Under the pieces are notes generated by a model. That model worked only from the letters and a program-made list of their open reading frames with translations. It made no database searches and was not told the DNA's origin. Below, piece after piece: positions 1,939-13,972 of a stretch of 20,601 bases of DNA. The translations under genes were made by a program, and so were the position numbers. Source of the stretch: a virus. Numbering within the stretch: the stretch's first letter is position 1; every line of letters starts with the position of its first letter. The DNA is taken from IMG/VR virus record IMGVR_UViG_3300037805_000645, positions 1 to 20,601 of that record, one strand, 5' to 3'.

Positions 1939-2432
1939 TACTTCTCCCCCTTTGTAAGCTCTATATATAATCTATACGGAGTGTTTGCTTTATCCCTATC
2001 GTATTCAGGCCTAATCCTATCTGGCAGACCCTCTAAAGCTTCATGGCAAAGCATGTTATTAGTTGTATCTCCGAACGGCTCACCGTAGGGGATAGGTCTA
2101 TTAAATGAAAAAAGTAAAAACCCACGCCATGTTAACCAAAATAAATACATAAAATCGTAAGTTGATCCACGATATTTATATTTCATATTCTCGTATATCT
2201 TAGATTCATCTTCATCAGATTCTAATTCATAATACTTTGAAAAAATACGCTTACGCTTTTTGAAAAAATCCTCAATACTATCGTCTATGAAACCACGAAA
2301 AGACCAATGCAATATTCTATTATTTATAAGTATGCCGAAATGACCACATGGCTCCTCTAAAAAGTAACCAATGAAGTCGTTTTCTGTGCTTATTTTTTTC
2401 AAGAATAATGATCTAGTCCATATAAATGTCAT
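1938..2432 (-). CDS. Predicted permuted papain-like (YiiX/NlpC-related) protein
   Basis: This 164-residue protein carries the signature of circularly permuted papain-fold enzymes, where the histidine precedes the cysteine. His31 lies in 'CGHFGILINNRILHWS', followed by an F-x-x-R-x-x helix. A 'YRGSTYDFMYLF' segment sits at about residues 87-98, and Cys129 lies in 'MLCHEAL', comparable to the CSEL motif of YiiX/YebB-type proteins. Known relatives include amidases, peptidases and acyltransferases acting on cell wall or lipid substrates. There is no signal peptide. It lies between the gp36-like gene and the accessory virion block. A virion-associated wall- or lipid-acting enzyme is my inference; the catalytic pair is seen in the sequence, the substrate is unknown. 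Confidence 0.6.
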   Translation of the reverse strand: MTFIWTRSLFLKKISTENDFIGYFLEEPCGHFGILINNRILHWSFRGFIDDSIEDFFKKRKRIFSKYYELESDEDESKIYENMKYKYRGSTYDFMYLFWLTWRGFLLFSFNRPIPYGEPFGDTTNNMLCHEALEGLPDRIRPEYDRDKANTPYRLYIELTKGEK

Positions 2433-2434
2433 AA

Positions 2435-3295
2435 TTACGCCTTAAATATCTCAAAGATTGCCTGAAACCTATGCTGGTATCCGGGTTGATGTCTCATCAT
2501 AAATCTAATTCTATTTGTACCCAGGTTAGGTGGTAGATTAACAAAAACACCATTGGGCGGCATTACACCTGCATTATACAACATTGTACCATTAACACCT
2601 TTTAAGCCAACAGGGTCACGCGGGCTAACAAAACTCATAGCCATGCCACCATCTAAAACTGTAATTGGCGCTAAACCATAAGCACCCAAAGCAGGATCAA
2701 CGTCTAACATAAATCCCCACATATAAACTTCTGTTGTTGGTACTTCTTGGTGTGTAACAACCCCACTCATAATCATAAAATCAACGTTAGGCATAAATTT
2801 ATAGTCTGTTCTTATACATTTCGTATCAAGGTCAAGTTGTGTAGGGTTAACCATTAAGGTTTCGACACCATTTACATCTTCATAAAAATCACACGTAGAA
2901 AAACCAGTATCAAGATTTGCAGCATTCTTATCATGGATAGCACCATTAATTATTGATGTTGTAAACTCAATCTCATGTAGTCTTTGATAAAATCCATCAG
3001 GAGCATACTTAGTTGTAACTTTAATTCCAGCCGTATCACTATCTTTATCCATGATGTTAACATCTGTGGGAGCCTTAATAACTGGCACTGGGATACCGTC
3101 ATGTGCGCCAACCAAAGCTATCAATATTGTTTCTTCAGGAGCCGACAAGACTCCAGTAAATAATATTTCTAGAACATCAGAATCAGTGTTTATAGCATCT
3201 AATGCTGGTACGACCGCGCTTGCTGTAATTTCAGTAGTTAGCTTAGGCGTATCAACTGCGGCATTTAAAGTATCAGCAGCTATTGAAAATATCAT
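2435..3295 (-). CDS. Accessory virion protein sharing its N-terminal domain with the next gene upstream
   Basis: The 286-residue product opens with a domain of about 70 residues (MIFSIAADTLN ... LSAPEE ... AHDGIP). This clearly aligns with the start of the adjacent upstream gene at 3292-4020: shared S-I-A-x-D-T-L-N, EI-x-x-SA, ALD-x-x-N, DVL-x-I-x-F, LSA and AH-x-GI. The remaining 210 residues form a separate beta-rich-looking domain with 'MIMSGVVTHQEVP' and a C-terminal 'RIRFMMRHQPGYQHRFQ'. I do not recognise that domain. The gene overlaps its upstream neighbour by ATGA, and the Shine-Dalgarno lies inside that neighbour. Its position suggests a capsid- or tail-associated surface protein with an N-terminal anchor and a variable C-terminal part. 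Confidence 0.7.
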   Translation of the reverse strand: MIFSIAADTLNAAVDTPKLTTEITASAVVPALDAINTDSDVLEILFTGVLSAPEETILIALVGAHDGIPVPVIKAPTDVNIMDKDSDTAGIKVTTKYAPDGFYQRLHEIEFTTSIINGAIHDKNAANLDTGFSTCDFYEDVNGVETLMVNPTQLDLDTKCIRTDYKFMPNVDFMIMSGVVTHQEVPTTEVYMWGFMLDVDPALGAYGLAPITVLDGGMAMSFVSPRDPVGLKGVNGTMLYNAGVMPPNGVFVNLPPNLGTNRIRFMMRHQPGYQHRFQAIFEIFKA

Positions 3296-4020
3296 AAATC
3301 AACCCTCCATAATTCAATGCGCGCCCTTCTTATTTTAGCAGAGCCCCCACCATCGTCATTATATTGGATTTTAAAAGTATTCACTCCAGAGATAGATGTG
3401 AAATGTTTAAATCCACTTTGACTCATCCAATGATGCTTTTCAAATTCATCCACAGAGGTATGCTCTATTTGATGTAAAACGGTAACATCATTTTGAATCA
3501 ACTGATAATTAGCATCACTATCTGATGTGTACATTTCATAGCTAAATTGCATTCTATAATTTCCTGATGCTAAGGACGGTGTAGTTAAAGTGAGTTTAGT
3601 TTGATAACTTCCAGATGTAGTAGATGATTCACTTTCGCTTTCTGCATATTGATAATTAGCACCGAAATTATTGCCACTTCCTGCTGGTCCAGCTGGACCT
3701 ACTGCACCAGTATCTCCAGTATCCCCTTGAGGGCCTTGTACTGCACTTAAATTTATAACTTCTTCATTTGAATCTAAAATATGATATCTATTAATATCAG
3801 ATTTTGTATAAATTCCAGTATGGGCCGCAATCAAGGTATTTAAAGCCACTATATCAGAAGCTGATAATGCCTCTTTAAAGCCAATAGTTAAAACATCAGC
3901 GCTTCTATTTACATAATCAAGAGCTTTTGTTATCGCAGATGTTCTTATTTCACCTCTCAAAGCTGGGCCACTACAAACACCATTTAAAGTATCATTAGCT
4001 ATAGAATAAATATGAATCAT
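3292..4020 (-). CDS. Mosaic virion protein: shared anchor, collagen-like stalk, beta-sandwich-like tip
   Basis: I place the start at ATG 4020, with GGAGG a suitable distance upstream and a TAATG overlap with the previous gene; an in-frame TTG at 4035 would add five residues but bypasses the Shine-Dalgarno. The 242-residue protein has three parts. Residues 1-70 match the start of the next gene (2435-3295). Residues about 94-112 are collagen-like G-x-y triplets (GPQGDTGDTGAVGPAGPAG). The last 115 residues match the C-terminus of the previous gene (4020-4559), sharing STTS, G-x-Y, SGFxxFTSISG and the terminal IE(I/L)WRV. It is therefore a chimera bridging both neighbours. Collagen-like stalks trimerise in many phage fibres, so a short trimeric fibre is the likely form. 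Confidence 0.75.
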   Translation of the reverse strand: MIHIYSIANDTLNGVCSGPALRGEIRTSAITKALDYVNRSADVLTIGFKEALSASDIVALNTLIAAHTGIYTKSDINRYHILDSNEEVINLSAVQGPQGDTGDTGAVGPAGPAGSGNNFGANYQYAESESESSTTSGSYQTKLTLTTPSLASGNYRMQFSYEMYTSDSDANYQLIQNDVTVLHQIEHTSVDEFEKHHWMSQSGFKHFTSISGVNTFKIQYNDDGGGSAKIRRARIELWRVDL

Positions 4021-4559
4021 TAAGCAACCCTCCAAATTTCAATTTTAGTTTCCGACAACTCAACCTCATCCTCATCATTTGGAGAATTAAATTGAAGCTC
4101 AACCTGCAATGTTGTAGCCCCAGACAAAGTCACAGTAGTAAAACCAGTCCAAGAAAAGTCCTCATCCTCTTGTTTTTCACCATACTTTAAGTCAACCTCT
4201 ACATCAGTAGATCCGTCAAGTCTTACTCTCATGTTTAACCCACTTTCAGCTTTCTCGAACTTACAAAGAGTAAACCATTTTACAATGTATTTTCCCCCGT
4301 CCGTTAAACCTGAAAATGTATTATCTATTTTATCTGACCAATCATTTGAAGTTGTTGAATCATCCCCTAAAGACACGGCCTCATCATAATCTAATCCAAA
4401 TACACGGGCAGCTAGTTCATCTAACTGCCCCTGAGTTTCATCGGAGGTTAGTCCGTTTGTAGTAACTGCTGAAACATTAGACGCAGTTAGCTGGAGCTCC
4501 GTTTGCATATGAAGCTCCACACCGTCCTGTTCTAATAAAGCAACTTTAAAGTTAGGCAT
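4020..4559 (-). CDS. Accessory virion protein with shared C-terminal domain
   Basis: The 179-residue protein has a short N-terminal segment (MPNFKVALLEQDG) weakly resembling the start of the upstream 467-residue protein (MAQVKVLYINADG). A small helix with 'DETQGQLDELAARVF' follows. From about residue 65 it has a beta-rich domain (DSTTSNDWSDK, GGKYIVKWF, SWTGFTTVTLSGATTL, IEIWRVA) that aligns with the C-terminal domain of the downstream chimeric gene. The composition is acidic and Thr/Ser-rich, as in phage surface proteins. It overlaps the upstream gene by 8 bases and the downstream gene by a TAATG. Function is inferred as a minor fibre or head surface component; no enzymatic motif is visible. 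Confidence 0.65.
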   Translation of the reverse strand: MPNFKVALLEQDGVELHMQTELQLTASNVSAVTTNGLTSDETQGQLDELAARVFGLDYDEAVSLGDDSTTSNDWSDKIDNTFSGLTDGGKYIVKWFTLCKFEKAESGLNMRVRLDGSTDVEVDLKYGEKQEDEDFSWTGFTTVTLSGATTLQVELQFNSPNDEDEVELSETKIEIWRVA

Positions 4560-5955
4560 TTTTCTTAACAGGCCTTACTTCAACATGCATTTCGCCAGTA
4601 GCTGATAAAACACCAGCTTGCCAAACATGAGATGATGCTGCTGAAGGAATTGTAGCTGTTAAGCCAGAACCATCCCAGTAGATAGGATCGCCAACAGCAG
4701 GAGTTCCGCCAACTGTTAAACCAGTGACCTTAGTGTCGTTAGCTAACACCTTAACGGTTGCAGCAGCAGCTTCGGTAGTTAAAGCAATACCAATACCTCT
4801 ATGGTGAACTGTTAAGGTCCCATAAGGCAGAACTGTATTCGCAGCTGATATGTAAACTAAATCGCCCTTAGTAACTCCACCTGCTCCTACAGTATAATCC
4901 TGTCCTACATCAACTATTGCTGCGCCAAGCTGTTGTAAAGCATCTTCAACAAAGTCAGTGGTAAAGTAACCACCAGCATCTGCTATAGGCATATCCCCAG
5001 CACTTACTTGGCCTGCGCCTGTACCCCAGTCTATATGAGTATCGTCAATACCGTCAGCTAAAACACCAACCTGATTAGAACCGTTAATCTCAATAGATGT
5101 CCCGTCAACACCAACACTAAAAACACCTGAAGCTATTGAGATACCATTAGCTAAAGCCGCATCTGCAATTTGAACATCAGTACCAACTTTAGTTAAACCA
5201 GTAGAGGCAGTAGTTGCTTCGAGTAATTTTTGACTCCAACTTGCTCCACCCCAAAGATAATATGCAGTATTAGGCTCATCATCAGCACTATTCTTAGTAC
5301 CAACTGTAGGCGTAGTAGCGACCCATAATGTTCCGTTAAATTGAACTATATCACCAGCACTTGCACCATCCCAGTTTACATGAGGCGCTCCACCATCGTG
5401 AGATAGTATGTAAACGTCGTCTAAAACCTCAGTTGCAGGAATAGCTGTGTTATCCACAACATAATCTAATGCTGATTTTGGATACCACTCGCTCGTTAGC
5501 GTAATGTCATCAACATATTTCTTATCAACTAACTCTGTGTCAGCTGAAAACGTTGGATGAGAACTGTAAGACACTTTGCCTGTATAAGCTCTGGTTCCAT
5601 CTACTAATGAATATATTGTATGATCATCGTCACCGAGACCTAAAAGACTGCCATGGTCAATTGCTCCGACATTAATCATGTTATTATTAATTAATCCAGC
5701 AGCATCTAAAACTATAGGAGCACCAGCGGAACCCACACCTGCCGAACTATTCAAATGCTCACTCTCTTGAAAATAAACAGAATCATGAGTGTGCTCAGCA
5801 GAGCCATCCCCACCACCGATTAAGTTTCCTAACCTCGTATCCGTTAGCTCATTATTTGCAGTAAGAAGACTTGATACCTTAAAAGAATCAGCTGACTCAC
5901 TGTGTTCTTGCGGCAAACCATCCGCATTTATATATAATACTTTTACTTGTGCCAT
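4552..5955 (-). CDS. Tail-fibre/decoration-like virion protein, 467 aa
   Basis: The N-terminus (about 1-45) resembles that of the next gene. Around residues 53-160 there are typical phage fibre elements: 'EHTHDSVYF', 'DHGSLLGLGDDDHTIY', 'LVDGTRAYTG' and 'ELVDKKYVDD'. The middle is Gly/Ala/Thr/Asp-rich with beta-repeat character (TGLTKVGTDVQIADAALANG). The last 115 residues (VTKGDLVYIS ... GIGIALTTEAAAATVKV ... GDPIYWDGSGLT) look like a capsid decoration domain of the DUF2190 type, with the G-D-P-(I/L)-(Y/F) pattern shared with the gene at 6365-6802. A GGAGGGG Shine-Dalgarno precedes ATG 5955. It is probably a fibre or knob attached to the head or tail. The combination of fibre repeats with a decoration-type tail is notable. 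Confidence 0.65.
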   Translation of the reverse strand: MAQVKVLYINADGLPQEHSESADSFKVSSLLTANNELTDTRLGNLIGGGDGSAEHTHDSVYFQESEHLNSSAGVGSAGAPIVLDAAGLINNNMINVGAIDHGSLLGLGDDDHTIYSLVDGTRAYTGKVSYSSHPTFSADTELVDKKYVDDITLTSEWYPKSALDYVVDNTAIPATEVLDDVYILSHDGGAPHVNWDGASAGDIVQFNGTLWVATTPTVGTKNSADDEPNTAYYLWGGASWSQKLLEATTASTGLTKVGTDVQIADAALANGISIASGVFSVGVDGTSIEINGSNQVGVLADGIDDTHIDWGTGAGQVSAGDMPIADAGGYFTTDFVEDALQQLGAAIVDVGQDYTVGAGGVTKGDLVYISAANTVLPYGTLTVHHRGIGIALTTEAAAATVKVLANDTKVTGLTVGGTPAVGDPIYWDGSGLTATIPSAASSHVWQAGVLSATGEMHVEVRPVKKNA

Positions 5956-6364: not shown

Positions 6365-6802
6365 TTATGCAATTACTGTTGGGTTAGTAGACTGGAATAA
6401 TATATCATTGCCACCTAATGATTTTCCAACAGGGACATGATAACCCGCTGTTCTCTTAACATTGGTAATACCACCATCTACATCTAAAAATAATGGATCA
6501 TTTAAATTAAACACGCTAAATATTGCGTCTGTCACAACGCCTAACAATATAACATCAACAGTTTCACCTATTGCAGCTCCTGCGTCAGCAATACCTAAAA
6601 CCATGGCGTTTTGTTTTGTACTGTCGCCTGTTGCAAGAGCAACGTGAGTTGTACTAAAAGCCCTTACTAATTCACTAGCAACAATAGCCTCTTGAGCTAT
6701 CCTTGTTATCTTTAATTTAGTTGCACTATCTACAACAGTAGACGTACTCGACGTATCTACGAAATCAAAATTACTAGTAAATGGATTAAACCGCCATCCC
6801 AT
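6365..6802 (-). CDS. Decoration-like virion protein, 145 aa
   Basis: It begins MGWRFNPFTSNFDFVDTS, a short tag (W-R-F-N-P-F-T-x-x-x-D) seen at the start of many phage fibre or surface proteins. The rest (VASELVRAFSTTHVALATG ... MVLGIADAGAAIGETVDVI ... NDPLFLDVDGGIT ... GYHVPVGKSLG) has the alternating strand pattern of capsid decoration proteins of the DUF2190 type, and parallels the C-terminal domain of the 467-residue protein. Its ATG shares the TAATG overlap with the gene before it. It is probably an outer-surface trimeric protein or a fibre base. The call rests on composition and strand pattern, not on a catalytic motif. Confidence 0.6.
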   Translation of the reverse strand: MGWRFNPFTSNFDFVDTSSTSTVVDSATKLKITRIAQEAIVASELVRAFSTTHVALATGDSTKQNAMVLGIADAGAAIGETVDVILLGVVTDAIFSVFNLNDPLFLDVDGGITNVKRTAGYHVPVGKSLGGNDILFQSTNPTVIA

Positions 6803-7382: not shown

Positions 7383-8285
7383 TTAATGTTTAATTTTGAA
7401 TGCTTTATACCAAACGCCGTATCCAAACCCTACACGGTAATCAACACCGAATAGTAATTCTTTACGCATGAAAGCTCTATCACCTTTGTCCAAAGACTCA
7501 AATGTAATCGCTTTACGCTTTTGTAATACTAAAGGCTTTAATTCGCCAGAAGCATTAAGCAAGTACCAGTCGTTACCAGTTAAACGAGAAGAAATAACAG
7601 ACTTAGCAGCACCTTTTAGAGTGTTGGTAGTACTGTTAATTAAATCCGCGCCTAAAACCTCGTCAACAACGTTTTGAAGGTCAGGAGAACATACAACGAT
7701 TAAGTCCATGTTTCCTTCGTTTCTTGGCTCGCCTTGATCGTCAGTTAAAACTCTAAGACCTTGTCTCGCAGTTTGAAACTCAGCTTTAAACTCAGCAACT
7801 GTTTGGCTAGTCCCAGCAATAGTAGCTGTAGCAAGATTAAGTTGGTTAACTCCCGACTCATCATGTGCTAAAGAGAAAAAAGGAAGACCATCATATCCAA
7901 GATCAACTTCACCAGCTTTTAACTGGTCAAAGAATAACTTTCTAGGATGATTTCTAGCAACAGAAGCAAGATCAGAAATACGAACTTTAACAGCCCCTAA
8001 TTGATCGTCATCCATTGCATTCTTATTAACCTTAAGTGTAGCTTCGTAATCTTTATTTGCGATACTATAATCAAAGTCTTTAAGACCTTTTAATTTTCTC
8101 TCGTCCAACCACTCGGTCATTTGAGGAGAATTACCTAACCATCCGTATTTCTCAGAATCAGCACTAGAGTCTGTTTCCATGATCATACCCATGATCTCTT
8201 GAGGATTTTCGCCGTTATTGAATTTCTTCATGAAATCAGCGCGTAACCCTTTCTCTAAAAGTAATTTATTACTTACGATACCCAT
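7383..8285 (-). CDS. Major capsid protein, Mu gpT-like
   Basis: The 300-residue protein is close to Mu gpT in length and has its landmarks. An N-terminal helix (LLLEKGLRADFMKKF) is followed by 'YGWLGNSPQMTEWLDERKLKGL', the 'KDYEATLKVNKNAMDDDQLG' segment, 'DGLPFFSLAHDESG', 'LIVVCSPDLQ' and a late 'AFMRKELLFGVDYRVGFGYG'. These are the characteristic ordered blocks of the Mu-like major head subunit, an HK97-fold protein that builds the icosahedral shell. GGAGG lies upstream of ATG 8285. The gene follows a protease/scaffold gene and a decoration gene and is followed by a terminator, a typical arrangement for a very highly expressed capsid gene. Confidence 0.9.
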   Translation of the reverse strand: MGIVSNKLLLEKGLRADFMKKFNNGENPQEIMGMIMETDSSADSEKYGWLGNSPQMTEWLDERKLKGLKDFDYSIANKDYEATLKVNKNAMDDDQLGAVKVRISDLASVARNHPRKLFFDQLKAGEVDLGYDGLPFFSLAHDESGVNQLNLATATIAGTSQTVAEFKAEFQTARQGLRVLTDDQGEPRNEGNMDLIVVCSPDLQNVVDEVLGADLINSTTNTLKGAAKSVISSRLTGNDWYLLNASGELKPLVLQKRKAITFESLDKGDRAFMRKELLFGVDYRVGFGYGVWYKAFKIKH

Positions 8286-8301: not shown

Positions 8302-8718
8302 TTAAGCTGCCGCAACAGGATTGCGCTCTAGTTTAACCCATACTTGAGTAGCCGAAACGTATTCAACGATTTGACCAACCATAGGGTTGTTAGTAGAGGT
8401 TTTAGTGATAGTGTCATCAGCTGATGCATAAACAAATTCGCCTATGTCAGTTTGAGCAAGACCCGCACCTGTTAATAAATAGCATCCCTCTTTCTTGTAT
8501 CTACAGTTAAGATCGCCAGCTGCACCAGCAGAATTGTCGATCTCTTCTTCAGAAATACCTGCAAAAATATTACCCGCGCCCGTAGCCGCTGGAGCAAGGT
8601 ATCCTGTTGTAGAGTACATAACAATCGCGCCACGATATATAATATCAGAAGCGATAACTGGAGCACTGTGAACAACACCGTCTTTTTCGTCTACATTTAC
8701 ACTGTTTGATAAAGCCAT
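8302..8718 (-). CDS. Capsid decoration/cement protein (DUF2190-like)
   Basis: The 138-residue protein (MALSNSVNVDEKDG...) has the beta-rich, Ala/Gly-rich pattern of head decoration proteins: 'IIYRGAIVMYSTTGYLAPA', 'IFAGISEEEIDNSAGAAGD', 'TDIGEFVYASADDTIT' and 'VGQIVEYVSATQVWVKL'. The G-x-(F/I)-V-Y-A-S-x-D-D-x-(I/T) motif is the kind seen in DUF2190 proteins, which sit on the capsid outer surface as trimers or spikes. It stands between the protease/scaffold gene and the major capsid gene, the usual place for a cement protein. Its ATG shares a base with the TAA of the upstream gene (TAATG). Confidence is good for a decoration role. Confidence 0.75.
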   Translation of the reverse strand: MALSNSVNVDEKDGVVHSAPVIASDIIYRGAIVMYSTTGYLAPAATGAGNIFAGISEEEIDNSAGAAGDLNCRYKKEGCYLLTGAGLAQTDIGEFVYASADDTITKTSTNNPMVGQIVEYVSATQVWVKLERNPVAAA

Positions 8719-9146
8719 TATTCAGCCCCCTCGTTTGCCTGATAGAACTCTTCTTCTGTAAGCTCCATTTTCTTAGCCATTGCTTTTTCAGCATCAGTAA
8801 GCTTAATAACAATCTTGTTGTCAGCTTCTTTAGAACCTTTAGGCGTTGTGTTTAATTTATCATTTAAAGATAATACATCTAGAAGGTCTTTACCTTCGTT
8901 CAAAGCGTCAAGTTGAGCTTTGTTGATCTTACCTTCGCTAAAAAGCACACTGTGCTTCGCTTCTTTTTCTTTTTTCTCAGCTGATAGTTTTAACTCTGTA
9001 TTTTCTTTAGACAGAGTTTCAACTTTAGACTGCAAGTTCTTTGCAGTAGTAACAGCTGTGCCTTCACTCAACTTCAAACCGTCGATATTTTTTTGCATAT
9101 CAACAATCTGTTGGTTGTGGTCGGCTAAAGCAATAGTTTTTTCCAT
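8718..9146 (-). CDS. Nested scaffold protein from an internal start (Mu gpZ analogue)
   Basis: Inside the protease frame, Met271 (ATG at 9146) has a strong Shine-Dalgarno, AAGGAG, eight bases upstream. Initiation there would give a 142-residue protein (MEKTIALADHNQQ...) holding only the coiled-coil scaffold part (NLQSKVETLSKENTELKLSAEKK) and the acidic C-terminus. Mu makes its scaffold gpZ from the 3' part of gene I in this way, and lambda does likewise with C/Nu3. The junction also lies in a linker (LNESKNKGVPK), which fits a domain boundary. The ribosome site and domain break are seen; actual use is inferred from the family. Confidence 0.7.
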   Translation of the reverse strand: MEKTIALADHNQQIVDMQKNIDGLKLSEGTAVTTAKNLQSKVETLSKENTELKLSAEKKEKEAKHSVLFSEGKINKAQLDALNEGKDLLDVLSLNDKLNTTPKGSKEADNKIVIKLTDAEKAMAKKMELTEEEFYQANEGAE

Positions 9147-9956
9147 TTTAGGAACTCCTTTATTTTTGCTTTCGTTTAAACCAACAATCGCGTCCATTTT
9201 TAAGAATGGTCGATTGACTAATGCTGCGCCTAATAGAGTCGGCCCATGGGCTACGCCCGAATGTGGGTGGATCCAATTAGGATGAAATTCCGGGCTCAAA
9301 TACCTAAACTCTCGGTCTGTTAAACTAACAGCTCCTTTAGGTGTCCATTTAATAACCCCGAATAAAGTATTGCCGTCGTCACTCAAAAAGACTTCTTTGA
9401 TCCAACCCGCCGCTTCTCTCGTTTCATGATCAAAGTCTATTGATAGATCGACTCCTACTACTTTATTCTCGAAATTTTCTTTAAAACTTAATAAATTCTT
9501 TTGCGTGATCTTAACCTCACCATAGGCTGCATGGAAACCATCAACAACCGTAGCAAGCTCTATGACGTAAGGTAATTCAGCGCTTAGCTTTAGACTATCG
9601 CCGTCCTTTACGTTGAATAAAAGTGGGTTGTCAGGACTCATAGGCCTAAGCAATCCAACATAAATCGTAACGCCATCTCTAATCTTAATCTTACGCATGG
9701 TGCTTTCAATAAAACCAATCTCATCAAATAAAATAACTGCATAACCATTTTTAGTCTCATCTATTACCGCATCCGTATAGACATGAGCTCTTAAGAAGTC
9801 GTCAACCTGATCTTTATCAGAAAATACAGTACCATCAAATTCAATACGCTGACCCATAGATCCTGGCTCTACATCATTGTCGGCAATAATTTGATCGACC
9901 TCTTCTTCCATCTCTACAAATTTCTTATCCATTAATAAGGATTTTAATAAACTCAT
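8718..9956 (-). CDS. Prohead protease/scaffold, Mu gpI-like with an extra N-terminal domain
   Basis: The 412-residue protein has three parts. Residues about 35-105 (VFSDKDQVDDFLRAH, IDETKNGYAVILFD, MRKIKIRDGVTIYVG) resemble a small domain I recall preceding prohead proteases in other phages. Residues about 130-255 match the Mu gpI-type protease: 'SIDFDHETREAAGWIKEVF', 'REFRYLSPEFHPN' and 'GAALVNRPFL', with the D-x-D-H block at about residue 173-176 likely near the active site. From about residue 270 it is a charged coiled-coil scaffold. It would cleave itself and capsid-associated proteins during prohead maturation. It overlaps the portal gene by ATGA. A nested in-frame start gives the scaffold alone (see the next entry). 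Confidence 0.85.
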   Translation of the reverse strand: MSLLKSLLMDKKFVEMEEEVDQIIADNDVEPGSMGQRIEFDGTVFSDKDQVDDFLRAHVYTDAVIDETKNGYAVILFDEIGFIESTMRKIKIRDGVTIYVGLLRPMSPDNPLLFNVKDGDSLKLSAELPYVIELATVVDGFHAAYGEVKITQKNLLSFKENFENKVVGVDLSIDFDHETREAAGWIKEVFLSDDGNTLFGVIKWTPKGAVSLTDREFRYLSPEFHPNWIHPHSGVAHGPTLLGAALVNRPFLKMDAIVGLNESKNKGVPKMEKTIALADHNQQIVDMQKNIDGLKLSEGTAVTTAKNLQSKVETLSKENTELKLSAEKKEKEAKHSVLFSEGKINKAQLDALNEGKDLLDVLSLNDKLNTTPKGSKEADNKIVIKLTDAEKAMAKKMELTEEEFYQANEGAE

Positions 9957-12352
9957 TTCGTCTCCTTTAGAGTTATAGACTTCTTGTCAGTGTCTGTAAT
10001 CGCTGGTAATCCTGTAACGTCAGGCAAGTCACGGCTTGTTTTTAAGTTAGCTCGTAAATATGACTTGCAGTTCTGATGTAAAGGAGGTTGAAACCGTATA
10101 ATGTCACGATCCTTAACATCGTAACTAGTACCAGCTAGCTTCTTACAAATATCAGCCTTTGGATCACTGTTAACAAAAGTATATGAAGCCACGGCGTCTA
10201 TAACATCGTCAGATAATAGAAACTCATTACGAGCCTCATTAACTATAGTCGTCGTAACCGTTCCAGCAACCACATCCTTAGACCCGCTGTTAATGGCATC
10301 GTCTGCAGCGTCTAACAGATCATTTCTTAACACCTCAATATCTTCAGTCGATGACTCAGAGGAATTAAATTGAAAAGCAACCGTGTCAGCTATAGACCCG
10401 GCCTCTTTATCTGAAATTAACTCAGCCTGATTAGTAATTAATATCTGTATATGCCTTGGAAGCTCAGAAAAATCAGTGAACTTAAAAGTATCAGCATTAT
10501 CAAACTTAGTTTTTAACATATCCATGTCATAACCAAGCTTCACGTCAGCCTTTGAAGGTATTTCACTCTTGGCTTGCCTCAACGACTTCTTAGCAGCTCC
10601 GGTTAACGATGCCTTGAGCTCTTTTTTAAAAGCATTAACACCGCCCACCTTAACATTCTTCGTAGCGTTTAACTTCTGACCATCTGAAAGACGCTCGTAG
10701 TTTTTCATTATGTCATTAATGTATTTATCAGAAATATTTGTTAAATTACGTCTTATAATTCCAACCACTTCAGGCTCTAACGATTCAATCAACGTCTTAG
10801 GATTATCTGATAACTCCTTACGCTCTTTAGACACTACAGGCTTACTCGTGTTCGTATCACCGTCTATAATATGTATGTGACCAGAACTATCTGCCTCTGT
10901 TTTAGTGCGACCTATAACCTCACCACTTGAATCTAAAAGCTCATGATAATGCTTAGCCCCTCGCTTAATAGAAGGGCCCGTTCCCTTGTGAGTATGGCCT
11001 ACAATATCGGCTAGCTTCAGCGATGTACTGTTATCGTCATCGCCCATATCACTATCATCGTCATCACCACTAGAATCATCATTAATTCCATCTCCTCCTG
11101 TTCCATCTGACTCCCCATTGTCAATCATAGCGCCCTCGGCTTTCTTAGGCAGCTTATGAATTTTACGAACATGATCCTCTAATGGCTCATCAACAGCAAT
11201 TACCCCAGCGGCACTATACCCTGTTATGATCTCCATGATTTCTTTTCCGGCCTTATCACTAACACCAGAATATGTAAGTTGTGGAAGTGTATCAATAGTA
11301 TCGCCATAATTTAATGCGACTAACTGAGGTATTAAACACGTATTAATAGTGTCCTGTATAGTATTCGCAATAGACTCTAATCCGTTTAGGAAAAAATCAG
11401 ATAGATCATTACCTAATGCAAACGCTCCGCTATTCCCACCAATGCCTAACTCTAAAAATGTTGCCAATATAGCGCCTGACATATTTTCATTCTCAGACTT
11501 AATCAAAGCGTTGAGTTTTTCAGGATCGAAACTATTATTATGTAGCTCTAGCTCCCAACCCTCAGGCTTGATTATATAGCTATCCTCAGCACTAGTGAAA
11601 CCCTTCATAACCTCAACAGCCTCAGCGTATTCGGCGTCGTTCTTAGACACGCGCTTGGGCACTGTTAATATTGGTGTTGGAATAGCGAAACGCTCAGTAC
11701 CGATGTACTGTAGCTCAGTAGCAAGTAATTTACGTGTGTAAGGGCCATACAAAATACGGCCTAAAGGAAAACCAATATTGTCCCCCTCTTGCTCATTATA
11801 AAATTGTAATAAAAATTCAGCAGGAATATCAGCGCTTACCTGAATGTCTCCAGTAGCCTCTTGCTTTACGTGTAGAAGCTGCCCCGTAACTTTGTCATGA
11901 TGCCATTCTGTTATAGTATTCTGTTTACGAAAACCTAACTGACCTAATCCCGTATAGGGGCCAAGCTCCTTGTTTGTTTTATTCTGATGTACTATTTCAA
12001 ATAATGCAAATCCATGATAGAAAAAAGTTAACGACTCATGCAAAAACTTAGACCATGAAATATCCTTAAATAAAATCTGATCTATTAACGCCGCAACCTC
12101 AATGTCTTTCGTATCATCAGTCGCAGCTTCTATTCCCCACTCGGCGGCCTTAATAGGATAGTTGACCGCAGATATTACCTTACGAATCTGAGAATCAGAG
12201 CGGCGCATCTTATCATAGAAACTAGAAGCTTCGTTACCTGTTAATAATTCTATATGGTCATCAGAGTTATGAATACGACCCACTACGTCGGTGCCTGATG
12301 AGCCTATCGGTGAGTCGTGACGTGTTGCTTTTACATTCTCTTCTGTAGCCAA
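9953..12352 (-). CDS. Portal protein (DUF935, Mu gp29-like) fused to Mu F-like minor head protein
   Basis: The 799-residue protein begins at a TTG codon with AGGGGA eight bases upstream; the next good Met is residue 49, inside the conserved portal start. Residues 1-400 are a DUF935/gp29 portal (MRRSDSQIRKVISAVNYPIK, WSKFLHESLTFFYHGFALFE, GRILYGPYTRK, LELGIGGNSGAFALG). Residues about 410-445 are an Asp/Gly/Ser-rich acidic linker. Residues 452-496 hold three H-x-H pairs (HTH, HYH, HIH). Residues about 505-799 are a Mu F-like domain ending in 'DICKKLAGTSYDVKDRD' and 'FQPPLHQNCKSYLRANL', the family's C-terminal signature. In Mu these are separate genes (gp29, gp30). The fusion would fix a 1:1 portal-to-minor-protein ratio unless it is cleaved by the neighbouring protease. 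Confidence 0.85.
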   Translation of the reverse strand: MATEENVKATRHDSPIGSSGTDVVGRIHNSDDHIELLTGNEASSFYDKMRRSDSQIRKVISAVNYPIKAAEWGIEAATDDTKDIEVAALIDQILFKDISWSKFLHESLTFFYHGFALFEIVHQNKTNKELGPYTGLGQLGFRKQNTITEWHHDKVTGQLLHVKQEATGDIQVSADIPAEFLLQFYNEQEGDNIGFPLGRILYGPYTRKLLATELQYIGTERFAIPTPILTVPKRVSKNDAEYAEAVEVMKGFTSAEDSYIIKPEGWELELHNNSFDPEKLNALIKSENENMSGAILATFLELGIGGNSGAFALGNDLSDFFLNGLESIANTIQDTINTCLIPQLVALNYGDTIDTLPQLTYSGVSDKAGKEIMEIITGYSAAGVIAVDEPLEDHVRKIHKLPKKAEGAMIDNGESDGTGGDGINDDSSGDDDDSDMGDDDNSTSLKLADIVGHTHKGTGPSIKRGAKHYHELLDSSGEVIGRTKTEADSSGHIHIIDGDTNTSKPVVSKERKELSDNPKTLIESLEPEVVGIIRRNLTNISDKYINDIMKNYERLSDGQKLNATKNVKVGGVNAFKKELKASLTGAAKKSLRQAKSEIPSKADVKLGYDMDMLKTKFDNADTFKFTDFSELPRHIQILITNQAELISDKEAGSIADTVAFQFNSSESSTEDIEVLRNDLLDAADDAINSGSKDVVAGTVTTTIVNEARNEFLLSDDVIDAVASYTFVNSDPKADICKKLAGTSYDVKDRDIIRFQPPLHQNCKSYLRANLKTSRDLPDVTGLPAITDTDKKSITLKETK

Positions 12353-12364
12353 AGCGAAAATCCC

Positions 12365-13972
12365 CTAATATTCACTCACCTTCACCCCTGATCGTCTCTC
12401 TCTTCTTTTTTTCTGCTTAACTATGGGCTCAGATGATATATTTTTATTAAAACTACCGTATGTAATATTAACATAACGACCTAAATTACACAAAGCTAAC
12501 GCATCCGAATAATCCGGTGATGGTCGGCCAGTCCTCTTTTTATAATCCTCTTTAGACTCTATTCGTAACCGACCTTTTGAATCAGGGAACGACTTTATCG
12601 TTGGAAGCTCTTTCATGAAGTTTGAGTCATTTATTAAATCTATGCAATAACGCATATCGTTAGACAATAGTTGAAACATCCTAGCCTTAAGGTTGGCATA
12701 ACGCGATTTATCTTGGTCAATTATCTCTTGATCTTTTTCATCCTCGTTTACGGGTGATGCTCCGAAATGTATTTCTCTAATATCTACTTTTTTAGAAATT
12801 ATTCCTTCTTGCTGCTTTTCAATAAGGTTATCAAACACACCCGCACCTATACCTGTTGCATCAACTAATACAACTGTGTCTCTAGCTACGTGATCGTTGT
12901 TTATCATATTTATCACATGCCCTGTAACCACCGTGGTACTGCGCTTTGCGACTGCTAATAGATCGGTATGCTTAGTGCCAACCATCTCACATAAAACGCT
13001 CTTATCGGAACCGTAGCGAGCCACATCGACGCCTATGCATCTTAAGCTTGTTTCCTCAAGCTCAGTGTCTCTTTCAAACGCCGCAGTTACTAAATTCATC
13101 GGTATTAATACAGAATCATCGTCATCTGGGAACTCGCCGAATACTTTAGATACTACTAGAGGATGGTCTAAACCCCACTCCATGCAAAATTCAATAGCCC
13201 ATTGAGCAGATGCAAGATGTGGAGTAGGCTGTGCATAACTCGATATCTCCATAAGCCGCTCATCTTCTGGCATCATCATTAAGCGGTCGATCTCATCCTG
13301 AATATCTTCTTTATTAAAAAAACCATTAGCCCTTAAGTTCGGAGAGTTAAAACAACTTAAATGTATACTATGCCATGATGCTAACTTTGACTTCTCATAA
13401 AACTCACACGCGCGAGTAGTTGGGTTGGCGATAGCTACGAACTTAACAATTTTACCGGAGGTCATTAACCCCTCAGCCATTTTCCAAATATCAGGAGGTA
13501 CGCCCGTCGCCTCATCGAAAATAATTAATACATGATCTGAATGATATCCCTGAAAGCTTGAGCCCTGTTGCTCATCTGATGAGCCAGCAGTTTTTTGAGG
13601 AGACAACCCTAAGCAATACCACTTGTCAGACTTTTTAAGTTGAGTGTTTAATAGCACCCCACCAAGAGGCATCTTTGAGTTTTTATAAGCATCCCTAAGC
13701 TCACCCCAAAGTAGTTTCTCAACTTGCTTATGTGTTGGCGCTGTAGTTATTACTAGAGAGTTCTCAAAGCATGAGTAAAACCATAGAGCAATACGAGCCA
13801 TCATATATGTTTTACCAGTACTATGAGATGAACGTATCAATACGCGATTATACTTAGCTACACGCCTTAAGACGTCAGACTGATAACACTCTAGAGTGTC
13901 AATTCCAAGAACATCCTCAAAAAATTCATCAGGCTTTATTCTATATTCATCTATTAAGGTTACGTCGCTCAT
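12365..13972 (-). CDS. terL: Terminase large subunit, Mu gp28-like
   Basis: The 535-residue protein has the full large-terminase layout. The Walker A loop is SSHSTGKT (about 48-55), Walker B is LIIFDEATG (about 149-157), and a coupling motif AIANPTT (about 181-187) follows. The RNase H-like nuclease domain carries acidic residues in 'IGVDVARYGSD' (Asp about 316), 'VLVDATGIGAG' (Asp about 371) and 'PDYSDALAL' (Asp about 487 and 490). It pumps DNA into the prohead and cuts it. It is the first gene of the main late block, with the portal 12 bases downstream. No convincing Shine-Dalgarno precedes ATG 13972. The small subunit gene is not adjacent: a plus-strand cassette separates them. Confidence 0.92.
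   Translation of the reverse strand: MSDVTLIDEYRIKPDEFFEDVLGIDTLECYQSDVLRRVAKYNRVLIRSSHSTGKTYMMARIALWFYSCFENSLVITTAPTHKQVEKLLWGELRDAYKNSKMPLGGVLLNTQLKKSDKWYCLGLSPQKTAGSSDEQQGSSFQGYHSDHVLIIFDEATGVPPDIWKMAEGLMTSGKIVKFVAIANPTTRACEFYEKSKLASWHSIHLSCFNSPNLRANGFFNKEDIQDEIDRLMMMPEDERLMEISSYAQPTPHLASAQWAIEFCMEWGLDHPLVVSKVFGEFPDDDDSVLIPMNLVTAAFERDTELEETSLRCIGVDVARYGSDKSVLCEMVGTKHTDLLAVAKRSTTVVTGHVINMINNDHVARDTVVLVDATGIGAGVFDNLIEKQQEGIISKKVDIREIHFGASPVNEDEKDQEIIDQDKSRYANLKARMFQLLSNDMRYCIDLINDSNFMKELPTIKSFPDSKGRLRIESKEDYKKRTGRPSPDYSDALALCNLGRYVNITYGSFNKNISSEPIVKQKKRRERRSGVKVSEY

Follow-up and report, generated by a model that had tools for sequence, protein, structure and literature searches.

A 20.6-kb virus record from IMG/VR with a Mu-like head module (IMGVR_UViG_3300037805_000645, positions 1 to 20,601; the whole stretch is referred to as the window, or W) was analyzed with respect to four neighbouring minus-strand genes, A, B, C, and D, which are situated between the capsid genes and connector-like genes. 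The N-terminal domain common to C and D is termed the anchor, the C-terminal jelly roll common to B and C the tip, and the D-type part behind an anchor Y. IMG/VR loci are designated by L-numbers, and G015 is a whole record. An earlier note on this DNA had described a relay of shared domains through all four genes; its gene coordinates were confirmed, and the start of C is the ATG at 4020. The four genes and their parts are:

4552..5955, minus strand: gene A, 467 amino acids (aa), fibre-like, with a capsid-cement-like C-terminal part at 4609-4899
4020..4559, minus strand: gene B, 179 aa, a short N-terminal part and a C-terminal jelly roll; putative first chain member
4023..4403, minus strand: jelly-roll tip of B, residues 53-179, from a hidden Markov model (HMM) and profile comparison
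3292..4020, minus strand: gene C, 242 aa, anchor, collagen-like linker, and TNF/C1q-like tip; termed an extender
3805..4020, minus strand: anchor of C, residues 1-72, from the structure model
3679..3738, minus strand: collagen-like stretch of Gly-X-Y triplets in C, residues 95-114, without structure in the monomer model
3295..3666, minus strand: tip of C, TNF/C1q-like jelly roll, residues 119-242, presumed C-terminal half of a joint
2435..3295, minus strand: gene D, 286 aa, N-terminal anchor (putative docking domain) and variable C-terminal Y; putative last chain member
3086..3295, minus strand: anchor of D, residues 1-70, from the HMM, with a predicted beta-alpha-beta-beta-alpha order
2438..3085, minus strand: Y of D, presumed outer, receptor-facing domain belonging to one of ten BLAST-unrelated groups

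Domains shared by B, C, and D

The first ~70 residues of C are common to D, as claimed earlier. BLASTP aligned the two proteins at 37.9% over 103 aa (E 7e-14), profile-profile comparison gave 97% and E 1e-10 for residues 4-72, and the Smith-Waterman score (z = 19) was reached by none of 500 shuffles. The claim that the end of C recurs in B also held, the last ~115-120 residues being shared according to profile-profile comparison (96%, E 2.6e-9, 120 columns) and Smith-Waterman alignment (z = 9.7, 0/500 shuffles as high), with BLASTP E-values of 2e-6 without composition adjustment and of 2e-4 to 0.12 with adjustment, depending on query direction. The proposed N-terminal similarity between B and A was rejected, as both the shuffle test (z = 0.6, 137/500 shuffles equal or better) and the profile comparison (probability 2%, for a 26-residue stretch outside the N-terminus of A) were null. 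The relay thus comprises the three proteins B, C, and D, and A stands outside it. A contains fibre-like repeats, and its residues 353-449 scored 23.2 against a cut-off of 24.0 for the cement family PF09956, to which B, C, and D gave no match. The homologue of A in L006 matches the head-decoration family phrog_2647.

In the structure model of C, a beta-alpha-beta-beta-alpha anchor with a predicted local distance difference test (pLDDT) score of 92-98 up to residue 70 is followed by a disordered linker, which contains the collagen-like triplets, and by the jelly roll (residues 119-239, pLDDT 81-97). The model of D was poor; its anchor (pLDDT 60-74) showed the same order of elements as that of C, and the part beyond the anchor was unusable. 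A collagen-like stalk, which the earlier note had placed in C, is present at residues 95-114 (GPQGDTGDTGAVGPAGPAG), but it is short, with about six Gly-X-Y triplets, and falls below the cut-off of the Pfam collagen family PF01391 (13.3 against 27.2 bits). Many phage tail-fibre profiles matched this stretch. Foldseek searches of the PDB with the jelly roll of C returned 2wq4, 8d02, 9h3d, and C1QL (E 1e-5 to 5e-4), the fold neighbours being the BC2L-C lectin, BxpB, ExsF with the F-Anchor peptide, and the C1QL proteins (C1q/TNF-like trimers). The tip is probably trimeric. Among viral models (BFVD), proteins annotated as C1q or collagen, from phages as well as giant viruses, were among the best matches of C. 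Close giant-virus matches include A0A3G5AHF9 (Solivirus) and A0A1X9VNK7 (Mimivirus AB-566-O17), one of them at 31% sequence identity over 126 columns.

At the sensitivities used, searches of Pfam, PHROGs, NCBIfam, PDB sequences, and 50,697 annotated phage records returned nothing for the anchor, and no match to A, B, C, D, or their relatives was found among the annotated phages. PDB sequence searches gave nothing significant, and the D profile had no PDB match. A scan of bacterial and archaeal genomes yielded no relative of the anchor and a single contig for the tip.

Occurrence and exchange of the two domains

A search of IMG/VR with the jelly roll identified L018 and L020, where the gene directly behind the jelly roll starts with a D-type domain. 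That D-type protein, used as query, retrieved 18 loci, and the anchor by itself 44, in part on the same contigs. The combined set holds 46 IMG/VR loci with 53 anchor genes, three start codons having been corrected by eye, and since most of them were retrieved without the jelly roll as query, the set provides a fair test of pairing. The HMM match of the anchor starts 2-11 residues past the start codon in all 53 anchor genes, and most tips end 4-8 residues before the stop. A tip-ending gene is found immediately upstream of the anchor gene in 52 of the 53 cases: 49 are within 50 nt, including 27 that overlap (offset 0 or -3), and three have one small gene between. The anchor-Y proteins fall into 30 clusters at 50% identity, and the pairing therefore does not reflect one phage sampled repeatedly. 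Both domains were present in all of 30 whole records (3.4 Mb in total, 20 to 529 kb each), with all 39 tip matches lying at the anchor locus. A small cysteine-cluster gene (YkgJ-like by eye) was observed between the jelly-roll and anchor genes at L056:2725-3217, L057:2526-3011, and L064:3536-3998.

The extender form seen in C, which carries both anchor and tip and has a tip gene before it and an anchor-Y gene after it, was found in W/L006, L045, L059, L066, and L075, and probably in L037, where the anchor match is weak. The middles of these extenders are unrelated and range from 9 to 436 residues, being collagen-like in W/L006, a 9-aa linker in L045, and fibre-repeat-like with ~435 aa in L059 and L066.

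By BLAST, all anchors group in a single cluster, and the Y parts fall into ten unrelated groups; of the 202 locus pairs whose anchors reach 55% identity or more, 175 carry Y parts unrelated to each other. The earlier note had read the shared domains as interchangeable anchors and tips. As the tip nearly always precedes a gene starting with an anchor, the two are probably halves of one joint, and the freely varying part is the part of D behind the anchor. In several phage pairs DNA homology is confined to, or broken at, the joint or the anchor. Between L030 and L036 the matching DNA covers the tip and anchor (553 nt, 75%) as well as a separate 65-nt stretch downstream. The L031/L032 and L032/L048 matches are limited to the anchor (~160 nt, 76-78%). 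L032 and L033 are related elsewhere, but their homology disappears near the jelly roll and returns within the anchor. The joint is thus a place where exchange stops and starts. Homology of such limited extent, and the break in L032/L033, would also be expected if the relay were a mere recombination footprint, in which conserved junction DNA recombines often and carries domain ends along without functional pairing. A footprint fails to explain the pairing in 52/53 cases, or why the rest of each record is nearly free of both domains, and we regard it as highly improbable.

A block transfer was detected by comparison with L006 (IMGVR_UViG_3300028045_000130), which has the gene order F-A-B-C-D-I and different genes beyond. 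DNA identity between W and L006 is mostly ~50-75% up to the N-terminal domain of C, climbs from 57% to 97% within the linker region of C (~3690-3810), and remains at ~76-97% as far as the end of gene I (near 1942), with no similarity beyond it:

1942..3810, minus strand: exchanged cassette of C linker, C tip, D, and next gene; 87% DNA identity to L006, with diverged and unrelated flanks

Because identity leaps inside the linker and ends after gene I, the C linker, C jelly roll, D, and I were moved as one block with one end inside the linker. This jump, together with the phages whose DNA is common almost only at the joint, is direct evidence for the idea in the earlier note that domains of this surface-protein set have been duplicated and exchanged. 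A diversification of tips was not seen: in the single recent exchange observed, the jelly roll of C is conserved (~94%) and its N-terminal domain diverged (~50%), which is the opposite pattern.

The borders between the three genes resemble each other at the DNA level:

3981..4043, minus strand: B-C junction, DNA 79% identical to the C-D junction over 63 columns
3262..3318, minus strand: C-D junction, ATGA overlap; the TGG-AGG (Trp-Arg) codons hold the ribosome-binding sequence GGAGG

In W and at related overlapping borders, the last Trp-Arg codons of the tip (TGG AGG/AGA) are also the ribosome-binding site of the next anchor gene. Trp-Arg or Trp-Gly was found at the tip end in 19 of the 27 overlapping borders versus 7 of 32 other ends (p = 2e-4). 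That the conserved C-terminal Trp-Arg-Val of the tip is owed solely to this site is only partly supported, because this end is kept in five loci without gene overlap (L056, L057, L064, L066, and L078). The 79% repeat over both borders fits a tandem duplication across the jelly roll-anchor border. The same repeat, the overlapping starts, the ribosome-binding sequence inside tip codons, and the frequent receptor-binding role of TNF-like fibre ends would also suit B, C, and D being separate adhesins, each attached to the virion alone, with domains shared through tandem duplication and adjacency arising from coupled translation and inherited gene order. We consider this unlikely, since inherited order by itself is a poor reason for the pair to stay together in phages of 20-529 kb that share little else, and since the opposite extreme termini and the repeated extenders with unrelated middles would be left unexplained.

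Genomic setting of the module

The other features assigned in the window are:

12365-13972: terminase large subunit, assigned by eye
9953-12352: portal (Portal_Mu, E 6e-39)
8718-9956: Mu-like protease
7383-8285: major head protein (phrog_371, E 4e-56)

Two or three capsid-cement-like parts were observed in W; 6365-6802 and the C-terminus of A (4609-4899) match PF09956 just below the cut-off, and 8302-8718 is also cement-like by eye. The same phage is found in a 38-kb contig holding genes for tail-tube-like, 856-aa tape-measure-like, tail-tip, and collar-fibre-like proteins (by eye), and on account of the tail-tube-like, tape-measure-like, and tail-tip genes the source phage appears to be a long-tailed siphovirus that carries tail-tip genes of its own. 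The module is located between head and tail genes in W, L006, and apparently L035. In L038 it stands between a neck gene and a tape-measure gene, and in L020 it follows baseplate genes.

The gene behind D (1938-2432) encodes a small, conserved protein in which a His (GHF/SHV) is followed further on by a Cys (C-[HA]-E), and homologues were observed at L006:4117-4629, L018:9316-9894, L030:9289-9807, and L034:9737-10276. By eye it resembles a permuted papain-fold (YiiX/LRAT-like) enzyme; it had no match in Pfam. A patatin-like phospholipase gene (PF01734, E 3e-21 to 6e-38) is located directly or closely behind anchor-Y at L033:8948-9877, L037:9404-10270, and L035:9619-10467, and possibly takes the place of the papain-like gene, as a swap by another lipid-acting enzyme.

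A candidate fibre joint

We propose, with a probability of roughly 0.6, that B, C, and D follow one another as segments of a single virion fibre, made of several proteins and joined by plug/socket pairs, with gene order corresponding to assembly order. Multi-protein phage fibres are well known. At each junction, the tip of one protein would act as socket, probably as a trimer, and the ~70-residue beta-alpha-beta-beta-alpha domain at the N-terminus of the next protein as plug. B would supply the first socket, C (plug, collagen-like stalk, and socket) would lengthen the fibre, and D (plug and Y) would end it and bear an exchangeable outer domain, most likely a receptor-binding one. Extenders such as C may arise by tandem duplication across the overlapping socket-plug border, by which both joint halves would be copied at once, and phages would trade outer domains and stalks at the conserved joint. 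We favour this joint because the two domains lie at opposite extreme termini, are adjacent almost without exception, are common to very different phages with little else in common, and recur together in extenders.

Several observations weigh against the joint. G015 has one weak anchor-like match far from the locus, L034 has the order X-tip, anchor-Y, anchor-tip, in which the tip of the last gene has no anchor following it, and in L023/L027 there are three tip genes per single anchor. A contig from a Candidatus Sumerlaeota metagenome-assembled genome (L021:1-1536) encodes three tandem jelly rolls in one protein with no anchor gene nearby. Across loci, the similarity of the anchors shows no correlation with that of the tips (Spearman 0.04, a weak test with tip identities near saturation), and specific anchor-tip co-evolution is therefore unsupported; the anchors of L032 and L033 are 86% identical and their tips 18%, the opposite of what a co-evolving interface would give unless conserved fold features are used. 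Trees with the two joints of W as sisters were neither rejected nor shown to be correct (approximately unbiased test, p 0.29 and 0.47). Finally, in the published accounts as cited, TNF-like fibre ends bind receptors or glycans, as in Pam3 gp24 (PMC9608196) and the Bdellovibrio MAT fibres (PMC10769870).

The proposed joint has a counterpart in T2 gp38, a separate small protein whose N-terminus is fixed to the C-terminal end of the gp37 fibre trimer and whose outer region is hypervariable; in the T2/S16-type gp37-gp38 system, swaps are limited by N-terminal compatibility (PMC12892980). The gene arrangement found here, with a putative attaching N-terminus encoded behind an upstream fibre end, fits this in 52/53 cases. 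There is no sequence match between the systems, the fibre end considered here is a TNF/C1q-like jelly roll, unrelated domains take the place of glycine-rich loops in the outer parts, and both joint halves occur together in extenders. The sequence of D holds no glycine-rich domain comparable to the PGII domain of gp38 with its hypervariable loops.

In the myocyanophage Pam3, the TNF-like tail fibre gp24 is bound at its TNF-like end by gp25; their genes lie side by side and were cloned as one gp24-gp25 segment (PMC9608196). This resemblance, and the adjacency and overlap behind a TNF-like fibre end, bring up the main functional rival, namely that D-type proteins are Tfa-like assembly chaperones whose anchor binds the upstream-encoded tip during folding and is then released or stays. 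Pam3 gp25, however, is a Tfa-type chaperone not detected in virions, and Tfa proteins have a variable N-terminal fibre-binding part and a conserved helical C-terminal part (PMC9608196), which is the reverse of the conserved N-terminus and the ten groups of C-terminal parts described above. No Tfa profile matched, a chaperone role is difficult to reconcile with extenders that carry both anchor and tip, and the anchor protein of L039 is 953 aa long with fibre-like repeats. We therefore find a chaperone role distinctly unlikely.

A C1q/TNF-like trimer also serves as socket on Bacillus spores, where BxpB and ExsF, both fold neighbours of the C tip, bind the N-terminal segment of the collagen-like filament protein BclA and an F-Anchor peptide, respectively (PMC10470788; PDB 8d02, 9h3d); there the plug is a short peptide on a spore surface, whereas the plug proposed here is a folded domain in a phage. 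The capsid spike SPP1 gp12 is likewise a trimeric, collagen-like, capsid-bound phage surface protein, but a single one for which the cited account describes no plug/socket pair (PMC7602432), and the stretch in C has only about six triplets. Bdellovibrio MAT fibres are mosaic and trimeric, some with TNF-like ends, but according to the account cited this domain is the glycan-binding end and no plug-bearing protein follows (PMC10769870). Domain mosaicism of phage fibres is well known, widespread, and ongoing (PMC10684548); the exchange of domains there is alike, and neither this domain pair nor a two-gene joint is described in the account as cited. The anchor looks to be without a described family, and a reusable joint pair across a gene border, with extenders, looks new.

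More tentatively, and with somewhat less than even confidence, the joint may be general, phages from 20 kb to >500 kb building extensible fibres by one plug/socket pair per border with assembly order set by gene order, lengthening them by joint duplication, and trading outer domains with unrelated phages at the joint. If the joint is real, the two domains would allow fibre chains and their outer ends to be recognized in many uncultured phages, some of them very large, and a protein with an N-terminal anchor and without a jelly roll would be the outermost, which would be useful where similarity cannot find receptor-binding proteins. The joint would further predict specific protein contacts and offer a concrete mechanism for fibre growth and for the transfer of outer domains between unrelated phages.

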